DNA of 64,000 nt from Sulfurospirillum multivorans DSM 12446 (GTDB lineage Bacteria; Campylobacterota; Campylobacteria; Campylobacterales; Sulfurospirillaceae), in assembly GCF_000568815.1 (NCBI RefSeq), contig NZ_CP007201.1, forward strand, positions 1,240,001 to 1,304,000, given 5' to 3'. Made by a program: the position numbers and the translations under genes. Within the stretch, counting starts at the first letter, position 1; each line of letters starts with the position of its first letter. Below the pieces are notes generated by a model. It saw nothing but the letters and a program-made list of their open reading frames with translations. It had not been told where the DNA came from and made no database searches. Of the stretch, positions 44,795-47,877 are shown piece by piece.

Positions 44795-45034
44795 ATGACT
44801 TCTACAGCAAAACTATTTCAAAATGGTCAAAGTCAAGCTATACGCCTTCCCAAGGAGTATCGGTTTGAACATCAACAAGAGGTTATCATCAAAAAAATAG
44901 ATGGTGCCATTTTGATATTCCCTAAAAACGATAAAAGTGTTTGGGAAAAAATGTTCGATACTCTGGGTAACTTTTCAGATGACTTTCTAGCGCAAAGAAG
45001 ACAACCAACACAAGAGCGAGAGGAGCTGTTTTGA
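44795..45034 (+). CDS. vapB: VapB-type antitoxin (AbrB/SpoVT fold)
   Basis: The 79-residue protein begins MTSTAKLFQNGQSQAIRLPKEYRF, the classic VapB swapped-hairpin DNA-binding domain. Its C-terminal half (FDTLGNFSDDFLAQRRQPTQ) is the toxin-binding part. It overlaps vapC by 4 bp (ATGA region). Confidence 0.85.
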   Translation: MTSTAKLFQNGQSQAIRLPKEYRFEHQQEVIIKKIDGAILIFPKNDKSVWEKMFDTLGNFSDDFLAQRRQPTQEREELF

Positions 45035-45432
45035 AAAAAATGCTCGATACCAACATCTGTATCTATATCATTAAAAACAAACCTCAAAGTGTCTTAGACG
45101 AGCTCAAAAAATGCAATGTAGGCGACATCATCCTCTCTTCTATCACGGTTTCTGAGTTGATTTATGGAGCGCATAAAAGTCAATTTGTCGAAAAAAACCT
45201 CAAAGCCATTGAACATTTCCTCATCCCTTTTGATGTCGCTGAGTATGATTATAAAGCAGCTTTGGAGTATGGAAAACTAAGGGCAAGTTTAGAAAAAAAA
45301 GGACAACCCATCGGTTCTTTAGATATGCTCATCGCCGCCCATGCAAAATCACTTGATATGGTGCTCGTGACCAATAATATGAAAGAGTTTGAGAGGGTTG
45401 AGGGGTTGAATGTTGAGAATTGGGTGCGTTGA
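45031..45432 (+). CDS. vapC: VapC-type PIN-domain toxin
   Basis: The 133-residue PIN ribonuclease has acidic residues in MLDTNICIYIIKNKP, SSITVSELIYG and GSLDMLIAAHAKSLDMVLVTNN. VapC toxins usually cleave initiator tRNA or 23S rRNA. The start is coupled to vapB. Confidence 0.85.
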   Translation: MKKMLDTNICIYIIKNKPQSVLDELKKCNVGDIILSSITVSELIYGAHKSQFVEKNLKAIEHFLIPFDVAEYDYKAALEYGKLRASLEKKGQPIGSLDMLIAAHAKSLDMVLVTNNMKEFERVEGLNVENWVR

Positions 45433-45534
45433 AAGAAGTAAGATAAAAGGCATTTGTTCATTTTTAAAGTTTTATAGATAAAATAAACTATAAATGAGAT
45501 TAATAAATCCTAAAATCAAAAGCTAGGAGTGAAC

Positions 45535-46566
45535 TTGAGCCACTTATTTTTAATTAGCCCTGAGATTTTAATGCAATTGGTTGGCATTAGAGATAACGCA
45601 AAATTTATTTATGAACTTGTAGAAAATCAAACTGAATTTAACAAGGAAATATCTTTAAGAACATTTAAAAACTTCATGAAAGGGAAGGGAAATCCTTCTC
45701 AAAAAACTATTGATGTATTGCAAAAAGATTTTAAAATAGATTTTGAGAGTGATATTTTTAAAGGTCTTTATAATTCACAGTGGCATGAAATACTACAAAA
45801 AATACAAACTACCTTTTCTAAGGATTTTTTCCCTTATGCTATGTTGGTTTTGCAAGAAATAGCTAAGCAAGAAGATGAGTTGATTCAAAGAATAAAAGAA
45901 TGTGACACAGAATTGGAGAGAATTCAAGCACTTGCTTTTCATCCTTTCGTCTTAAAAATTTTAAATGAACAAGAAAATTTGGTGCTACAAAATGCAAAAA
46001 GTCACAAAGAAATCAAAATGATTGTTGCATTATTGGTAACAAAAATCTTATTCTATATTGTAGCTGCTTTTGATGTTGAGTATGGCTTGTATCATCAAAA
46101 AATACACAAAGAAGAGCAGTACTCATTTATTAAAAAAATACTTCCAGTATATAATGACAAAAAAGAATTTTTACATCCTATTGGTAGGTTTTTCATGAAT
46201 ATTAAAGTAAAAAATAAAAAAACATTTAAACAAATGGCAGAATGTATAAATGTTGAAGGTTATGAGGGTATTAAGTCTGAATCCCAAATAAGAAAATTTA
46301 AATATTGGAGAAAAGGAACAAAAATCCCACATGTGGATGAAGTCATTAATATGATTAAAGCATTGTTTCCTCAAATTAGTACAGATGAATTGGAACATGG
46401 TAAAGTTATGTTTTATTGTGTTGTTGGTGTTTTAACACTTTTCAAAGAGCTTTTAAGTGCAATTTTTAAAAATGAGTCCGAACTTATTGGTTGGCTGCAT
46501 AAGCATTACAATCAATATCATCAAGCACACTATAGTGCTTGTTTGACAAAGCATCAAACAAGCTGA
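45535..46566 (+). CDS. Unrecognised 344-residue cytoplasmic protein
   Basis: I recognise no family. The protein is largely helical, without signal peptide, strong membrane helix or Cys clusters. Two segments look like small DNA-binding or adaptor helices: ISLRTFKNFMKGKGNPSQKT (about 39-58) and TFKQMAECINVEGYEG (about 228-243). TTG 45535 is preferred because AGGAG lies 5 bases upstream; an in-frame GTG at 45529 overlaps that site. It is AT-rich and lies between vapBC and the convergent Thg1-like gene, in a block without TTACATGTAA sites. Confidence 0.6.
   Translation: MSHLFLISPEILMQLVGIRDNAKFIYELVENQTEFNKEISLRTFKNFMKGKGNPSQKTIDVLQKDFKIDFESDIFKGLYNSQWHEILQKIQTTFSKDFFPYAMLVLQEIAKQEDELIQRIKECDTELERIQALAFHPFVLKILNEQENLVLQNAKSHKEIKMIVALLVTKILFYIVAAFDVEYGLYHQKIHKEEQYSFIKKILPVYNDKKEFLHPIGRFFMNIKVKNKKTFKQMAECINVEGYEGIKSESQIRKFKYWRKGTKIPHVDEVINMIKALFPQISTDELEHGKVMFYCVVGVLTLFKELLSAIFKNESELIGWLHKHYNQYHQAHYSACLTKHQTS
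46537..46563. terminator. Hairpin at the end of the unknown gene
   Basis: A 10-bp perfect stem (GCTTGTTTGA / TCAAACAAGC) with loop CAAAGCA, inside the last codons of the unknown gene and facing the convergent Thg1-like gene. Confidence 0.6.
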
Positions 46567-46574
46567 GATTCTGT

Positions 46575-47303
46575 TTAAAGTAGCTTTTTATAGGTGTTAA
46601 TATTAAAAACACTTGTGTGAATTTTTCTTTTATCGTCTATGTATTTTGGATAATGAAAAATTAAATTTTGCTCAAAGATATTGAAATCACTTTTTAACTT
46701 CTTTTGAATGACAAGGTTTTTGGCATTGTCGAGATTACATTTTATGTCATCATGATTTACATCAATATCTGGAAAAGAATTGTTTTTTAATCTAAGTACT
46801 TTCCAATAGCCATATCGAATGTTTAGTAAGTAGCGATATTTTAAATAAGTATGTACTTCATCAATATTTTCTAATAAAAGTGGTCTAGCATCAAAAAAAA
46901 CCTTTTCTTTTTTTACACCAATAGGCTTAAAATTTATGGACAATACAGAACTTAAAAGAGTACAAATTTTAAATAATCTTCTTTCCGCTTTTTCTTCAAG
47001 TGATGCGTTTATAATAATGCTAACTTCATCATTAGCAGAAAATGCACAGATAAAATTTTTAGGTAGCCTTGATTCTAGAAAAGTGTTCAATCCTCCTGTT
47101 GTAAAATTAATCGCATTAGAAAAATTACCTCTAAATTCTTTATTTTCAAGTGAATCTTTAATATACTTTTTTGTGGCATGAAAACCATCGAGTCTGACCA
47201 CTAAAAAGTAATTTTCAGGAATTGATAGCATTGTTTGTGACTTTTCTTCGATAGCTTTAAATTTTTTATCTAACGAAGTGAGTATATCATTCTCCAAGTA
47301 CAT
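46575..47303 (-). CDS. Thg1-like nucleotidyltransferase
   Basis: The 242-residue protein matches the tRNA-His guanylyltransferase family, which adds nucleotides in the 3'-to-5' direction. Motifs are FLVVRLDGFHATKKY (first metal-binding Asp), CAFSANDEVSIII (the SDE-type motif as NDE, with Asp and Glu kept) and VFFDARPLLLENIDEVHTYLKYR (the FDAR block). The HINNLYN-like region of eukaryotic Thg1 is not obvious, so it is better called a Thg1-like protein, a group known for 5'-end tRNA or RNA repair. Its start is two bases after the stop of a 48-codon acidic gene. Confidence 0.7.
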   Translation of the reverse strand: MYLENDILTSLDKKFKAIEEKSQTMLSIPENYFLVVRLDGFHATKKYIKDSLENKEFRGNFSNAINFTTGGLNTFLESRLPKNFICAFSANDEVSIIINASLEEKAERRLFKICTLLSSVLSINFKPIGVKKEKVFFDARPLLLENIDEVHTYLKYRYLLNIRYGYWKVLRLKNNSFPDIDVNHDDIKCNLDNAKNLVIQKKLKSDFNIFEQNLIFHYPKYIDDKRKIHTSVFNINTYKKLL

Positions 47304-47305
47304 GC

Positions 47306-47452
47306 TTAATTTTCATCATCGTAATAGTCATCGTCTTCATAATCAGGTTTATCTTCACCTCTCGAATTCCAATACTCATCATTATTTGGATTTAATTGGT
47401 TAGCATGATTGTCTAAATCTTCTTGTTTTGAGCAACTGTAAGTTTCTATCAT
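47306..47452 (-). CDS. 48-residue acidic protein coupled to the Thg1-like gene
   Basis: The protein starts MIETYSCSKQEDLDNHANQL, continues NPNNDEYWNSRG and ends in an acidic tail rich in Asp, Glu and Tyr (about half the last 16 residues are acidic). The ATG follows AAAAAAGGAGTTCACA, a strong ribosome-binding site. Its TAA is two bases before the Thg1-like ATG, whose own ribosome-binding region lies inside this gene, so translation is coupled. I do not know a named family; the N-Q-L-N-P-N-N-x-x-Y-W-x-S-R-G core looks like a conserved motif. A cofactor, inhibitor or nucleic-acid mimic are possibilities. Confidence 0.6.
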   Translation of the reverse strand: MIETYSCSKQEDLDNHANQLNPNNDEYWNSRGEDKPDYEDDDYYDDEN

Positions 47453-47616
47453 TGTGAACTCCTTTTTTAATTGAAGTTATTTTAATGAAATATCGGAGTA
47501 AATAAAAGAGGAACTTTTTTGGAAAACATTCAAAAATAGGGAGCATTAAACTTTTAATTTTCAAATTTATTTCAAAAATTTCCACCAAACTACTCAAAAA
47601 AATCTTTACATGTAAG

Positions 47617-47877
47617 TTATTTTTGTAGCTCACGCGCTCTTTCCTCTTTTAACTCCTCAAAAGTAGGGAAGGGCGATTTTTCTTTACATGTAAGCTCATA
47701 CCCCAAGTAGTCAAGGATGTTGAGTACGGTTTTTATGCCGATATTAGAGTTAATTCCATTTTCAAGAGAGCTGATGGTAGCGCGTGAGATATTAAGGTCG
47801 TGAGCAAGTTGAGCCTGCGATATTTTTTTCTCTTTACGAAGTTGTGCTATGTGAGTGCCAAATTCTTTTAAGTCCAT
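47617..47877 (-). CDS. XRE-family transcriptional regulator
   Basis: The 86-residue protein has an N-terminal Cro/CI-type helix-turn-helix (KKISQAQLAHDLNISRATISSLENG, given here as about residues 19-43) and a short C-terminal tail resembling HipB-like antitoxins (LDYLGYELTCKEKS). It carries a TTACATGTAA site in the coding sequence. No toxin gene is adjacent on the same strand; the next genes downstream are the acidic/Thg1-like pair, 164 bp away, which it could control. Confidence 0.7.
   Translation of the reverse strand: MDLKEFGTHIAQLRKEKKISQAQLAHDLNISRATISSLENGINSNIGIKTVLNILDYLGYELTCKEKSPFPTFEELKEERARELQK

Follow-up and report, generated by a model that had tools for sequence, protein, structure and literature searches.

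The window, a stretch of 64,000 nucleotides of Sulfurospirillum multivorans DSM 12446 (bases 1,240,001-1,304,000 of the single 3.18-Mb contig), carries on the minus strand a gene for a predicted Thg1-like 3'-5' nucleotidyltransferase of 242 aa (46575..47303) and directly upstream a gene for an acidic micropeptide of 48 aa (47306..47452). Both open reading frames and the 2 bp between them (47304-47305) had been described in a first-pass annotation and were recovered, as was the strong ribosome-binding site of the small gene: its ATG follows AAAAAAGGAG-TTCACA, a strong Shine-Dalgarno sequence with AAGGAG (47459..47464, minus strand) 6 nt before the start codon. The thg1-like frame has no Shine-Dalgarno sequence of its own, thus translational coupling to the peptide gene is plausible. 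A gene for a protein of 343-345 aa (45535..46566, plus strand; start TTG at 45535 or GTG at 45529) converges on this operon, the stops of the two facing genes being 8 bp apart. Upstream of the peptide lies the gene for an 86-aa regulator of the XRE family (47617..47877, minus strand; HTH_3, E=1e-13), possibly the regulator of the peptide-thg1 operon. A VapB/VapC pair (44795..45432, plus strand) occupies the same variable site. The GC content was 27.8 % for thg1-peptide, 28.6 % for the 345-aa gene, 38.4 % for vapBC and 40.5 % for the window. VapBC had been noted beside the Thg1-like gene; as its GC content (38 %) exceeds that of thg1-peptide and of the 345-aa gene (28 %), it is probably separate from the module. 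In the closest relative (genome G023, flanks 96 % identical), the junction is conserved, but the entire block between an ABC operon and an aldo/keto reductase is absent and its place is filled by one unrelated 264-aa gene (L129 5557-6351), which suggests that this chromosomal site is a hot spot for accessory genes.

The assignment of the 242-aa protein to Thg1 is right, but distant. Its score for PF04446 was 29.2 bits, exactly equal to the curated cut-off, and the window copy escaped a whole-genome search with PF04446. Solved Thg1 proteins (PDB) were matched at E=2e-4 from the single sequence, and 5xox at E=1e-7 with a profile of four sequences. The three metal-binding carboxylates, D39 of the RxDG motif and D92 and E93 of the DE motif, are invariant in four relatives and three other Thg1-like proteins (TLPs). 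On strand 4 the DxR signature, for which a role as a second site of adenylation has been proposed (PMC2904730), is kept, with D138 and R140 invariant in the alignments. Catalytic competence of the predicted enzyme is probable. The Asn-containing segment after the palm (INNLYN in Thg1, N..IN.H.Y in TLPs) is deleted; the alignments have a five-residue gap and no Asn at this position, a trait of the subfamily. With the motifs kept and this segment lost, we call the enzyme a divergent branch of the Thg1 superfamily. It resembles Thg1 and TLPs (PF04446; 5xox, 3wbz, 5axk) in the palm-domain motifs RxDG, DE and FDxR and in length, but differs, besides the missing segment, in an identity of only ~20 % to TLPs and in a diverged C-terminal half. 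An AF2 model from the single sequence reached a pLDDT of 32.6 and was unusable for the fold. The minimal CRISPR polymerase of Panoptes (mCpol) belongs to the same palm superfamily and to a small mobile defence-type unit (PMC2904730, PMC12657218); the window enzyme, however, matches Thg1 and not CRISPR polymerases or PADLOC models, and an effector of the mCpol kind is absent near the locus.

Enzymes of the Thg1 kind are the only ones known to run nucleic acid polymerisation backwards; the mobile, divergent branch described here was found in three lineages only: the S. multivorans genome, plasmids of Arcobacter and a gammaproteobacterial integron cassette. Within the genus, 1 of 24 genomes had the Thg1-like gene, and within the class 2 of 397, leaving out one peptidase-like false match. 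Three Arcobacter/Aliarcobacter plasmids carry a relative at 41 % identity. Among Gammaproteobacteria, 1 of 274 genomes was positive (L117); the class to which the Winogradskyella genome G409 belongs had the gene in none of 247 genomes. The L117 copy sits between attC-like sites (GCATAAC...GTTATGC) with a 67-bp repeat, 91 % identical, at 942-1008 and 2607-2673, and is thus part of an integron cassette array. Thg1-like loci are therefore rare and mobile. Phages, viral contigs and genome contigs held no relative detectable by protein or pattern, a weak negative as one set of automatic patterns was poor; the absence from phage and viral collections says nothing on the role. A weak match in Campylobacterota (G190, L006) was rejected as Thg1, being a peptidase-like protein. 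The integron array of L117 also contains sRNA-Xcc1 (RF02221) at 1297-1385.

The upstream peptide (MIETYSCSKQEDLDNHANQLNPNNDEYWNSRGEDKPDYEDDDYYDDEN; pI 4.05, net charge -13) has the family motif DNHANQLNPNNDxYWxSRGxDERPDDWE. In a scan of 85,000 prokaryote genomes, 240 acidic-class relatives were confirmed; the 80 best loci come from Campylobacteraceae, Treponema, Bacteroidota, Chloroflexota, Proteobacteria, Latescibacteria and methanogenic archaea. By tblastn, two related peptide classes, acidic and basic, were located on plasmids that belong to many phyla and lack Thg1; in Campylobacteria the acidic class was present in 4 and the basic class in 7 of 200 genomes. Among the 72 different DNA sequences that encode the core, diversity at codon positions 1, 2 and 3 was 0.11, 0.08 and 0.51. 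Synonymous variation dominates, hence the small frame is selected as a protein. Inside the motif used for scanning, amino-acid conservation partly follows from the scan itself; this does not apply to the third-position freedom or to the conserved ERPDDWE tail, which lies outside that motif. That the small gene is real, as had been assumed, is borne out by this constraint together with the 240 relatives, and on sequence criteria the 48-aa protein is a member of a widespread micropeptide family. No model of Pfam, NCBIfam, PADLOC or PHROGs matched the peptide, and the core motif NQLNPNN was not found in any paper by a literature search. The analysis thus exposes a highly conserved micropeptide family that extends from Campylobacterota to methanogens and is unmatched in the model libraries searched. 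The motif is also found repeated or in fusion with larger proteins (L020, L104, L110, L074, L075), and Vibrio plasmid proteins of ~240 aa (L013, L014) contain it internally. On the Treponema saccharophilum plasmid pTS2 (L007 5750-6096), basic- and acidic-class peptides stand in tandem upstream of an adenylyltransferase/PEP-binding/cysteine desulfurase/viperin operon. In Winogradskyella (L062 5087-6440), an acidic peptide is followed by a protein of 263 aa and then by a peptide like those of the basic class, and downstream proteins related to those of L062 are encoded at L080, L096 and L108.

That the convergent 345-aa gene encodes the conserved partner of the peptide had been overlooked. By hhalign, the homology of its product to convergent peptide partners in Shewanella, Vibrio and Marinomonas (four gammaproteobacteria) spans about 300 positions, with a score of 55 versus a best of 20 in 100 shuffles and 21 in 31 other window proteins. 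The partners have the landmarks FYL..A..DV, LKxWRxGxxxP and a C-terminal Y..HY in common; the window protein has an XRE-like element, FKYWRKGTKIP. The AF2 model is all-helical (mean pLDDT 67), and Foldseek against solved structures gave no match below E=0.2. Of 74 peptide loci, 15 had a convergent gene for 330-480 aa within 200 bp of the peptide; for the other genes there the figure was 20 of 606 (odds ratio 7.4, p=5e-7), although at least one of the 15 cases (L070) looks like an unrelated enzyme. Recognisable partners of the 345-aa kind are missing from most peptide loci outside Gammaproteobacteria; partner-like genes stand upstream of the peptide in Campylobacteraceae (L034, L036, L037), their homology to the window gene being not significant. 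Compared with the Thg1-like enzyme, the 345-aa protein is the better-supported candidate partner of the peptide. Since it is homologous to the gammaproteobacterial partners, the locus reads as a putative unit of peptide and partner into which a thg1-like gene was inserted, behind the peptide gene. Of greater interest than the pair of peptide and Thg1-like enzyme is the micropeptide family together with its partner; the window locus is one variant of this arrangement. On three plasmids, a conserved uncharacterised 530-aa gene (L002-L004 4197-5789) is divergent from the Arcobacter peptide-thg1 operon; its product was not placed in the partner family, as no relation to the 345-aa protein was detectable.

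How closely the peptide and the enzyme belong together depends on their co-occurrence elsewhere. On the Arcobacter/Aliarcobacter plasmids a 42-aa NQ...QLNPN peptide frame lies 1 bp upstream of the Thg1-like gene. The integron cassette copy has no peptide alongside, and in the fetched flanks of the best 80 of the 240 peptide loci a Thg1-like frame was found in none (best E 0.47, all filters off). The expected recurrence was thus seen on the plasmids, but neither in the cassette nor at these 80 loci. Judged from these arrangements, the pair recurs beyond chance without being obligate; the combination is real and unusual, yet the two genes do not form a fixed system. Type II toxin-antitoxin pairs share with the locus the small frame directly upstream of a larger one and the mobile nature, and the gene order, small size and coupling would fit a Thg1-like toxin that modifies tRNA 5' ends with the small upstream protein as antitoxin. 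Cognate partners are expected of such pairs, but neither window gene is restricted to the other: the peptide lacks Thg1 at all 80 inspected loci and the cassette enzyme lacks the peptide. Such independent occurrence of the two genes speaks against a toxin-antitoxin pair. The peptides beside two homologous enzymes are in addition opposite in charge, the Arcobacter peptide being basic (pI 10.8, net +8), which makes a cognate inhibitor hardly likely; altogether we regard this explanation as improbable. The same observations bear on the earlier proposal that the acidic peptide serves the Thg1-like enzyme specifically, as its inhibitor or by mimicking RNA. The net charge of -13 and the direct coupling agree with it, but the basic Arcobacter counterpart, the peptide-less integron copy and the 80 loci devoid of Thg1 render it unlikely, and with the acidic peptide so widespread without Thg1 we consider it very improbable.

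The enzyme may alternatively act alone in RNA repair, mending tRNAs or other RNAs that are damaged at the 5' end, with the peptide and the 345-aa gene as unrelated neighbours in a mobile site. Known Thg1-like proteins do so in vitro, the characterised TLPs favouring 5'-truncated tRNAs (PMC6471195), the catalytic residues are conserved and the integron copy stands alone. Such independence accords poorly with a peptide 1-2 bp upstream in two of three lineages, and the Asn-rich segment present after the palm of other Thg1/TLPs is deleted. The reported bacterial Thg1 partners, polynucleotide kinase, RNA ligase and MACRO (PMC2904730), were not found among the adjacent genes tested at the window locus. 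We rate stand-alone repair as unlikely. The peptide, in turn, may be a general-purpose disordered tag or regulator, e.g., in protein turnover or assembly, employed by many operons, repeats and fusions and with no special link to defence. The existence of motif repeats and fusions and the many neighbours that are not defence genes speak for this, the recurrent association with the convergent partner and with restriction genes against it, and we think it unlikely. Type I-like restriction genes (HsdM-like and HsdR-like clusters, identified by Pfam tallies and PADLOC REase_I) adjoin the peptide in 10 of 80 loci (L038, L039, L041, L059, L060, L080, L090, L095, L097, L101), a raw count without matched control. 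Other neighbours are McrBC, GmrSD, YhcG and DpdF-type proteins. PADLOC 2023 gave no match for the Thg1-like enzyme, the peptide or the 345-aa protein, and a literature search on Thg1 with antiphage, toxin-antitoxin or defence islands yielded nothing relevant.

Our preferred reading, which we hold tentatively and at somewhat less than even chances, is a horizontally acquired low-GC accessory module with a peptide/helical-protein core, an optional Thg1-like enzyme and a role in stress or defence. One operon would encode the NQLNPNN micropeptide and the divergent Thg1-like nucleotidyltransferase, probably translationally coupled, and would converge on the gene for the all-helical protein with the XRE-like element. 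At the level of sequence, recurrence elsewhere shows the peptide and the helical protein as the conserved core of the predicted unit and the Thg1-like enzyme as an optional, mobile add-on. The unit may serve the response to stress or the defence against phages. The helical protein, for which no fold match backs a role, may sense or regulate, with the peptide as its partner or ligand, and once the unit is active the Thg1-like enzyme might repair or extend RNA 5' ends, probably of tRNA. From the RNA-repair or defence unit put forward in the first-pass annotation, the defence link is reasonable, as the peptide family is often found among restriction genes, and the module is probably linked to defence; the peptide as dedicated inhibitor or mimic of Thg1 did not hold. 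A broader idea sees the NQLNPNN micropeptides as bait, trigger or antitoxin, a pan-prokaryotic and exchangeable core around which many modular immune units with varied partners would be built, the divergent Thg1-like reverse polymerase being one recruited effector; we regard this as unlikely. The locus offers a compact three-gene unit for probing the biological role of bacterial Thg1-like proteins. On a Vibrio cortegadensis plasmid (L008 4968-5613), the gene of an acidic-class peptide converges on that of a TIR protein of the ThsB type (Pfam E=4e-18). Related genes at peptide loci of Methanolobus, an archaeon (L065 5310-6098), and Vibrio (L103 4169-4900) look like NYN-domain nucleases, an assignment drawn from Pfam tallies.
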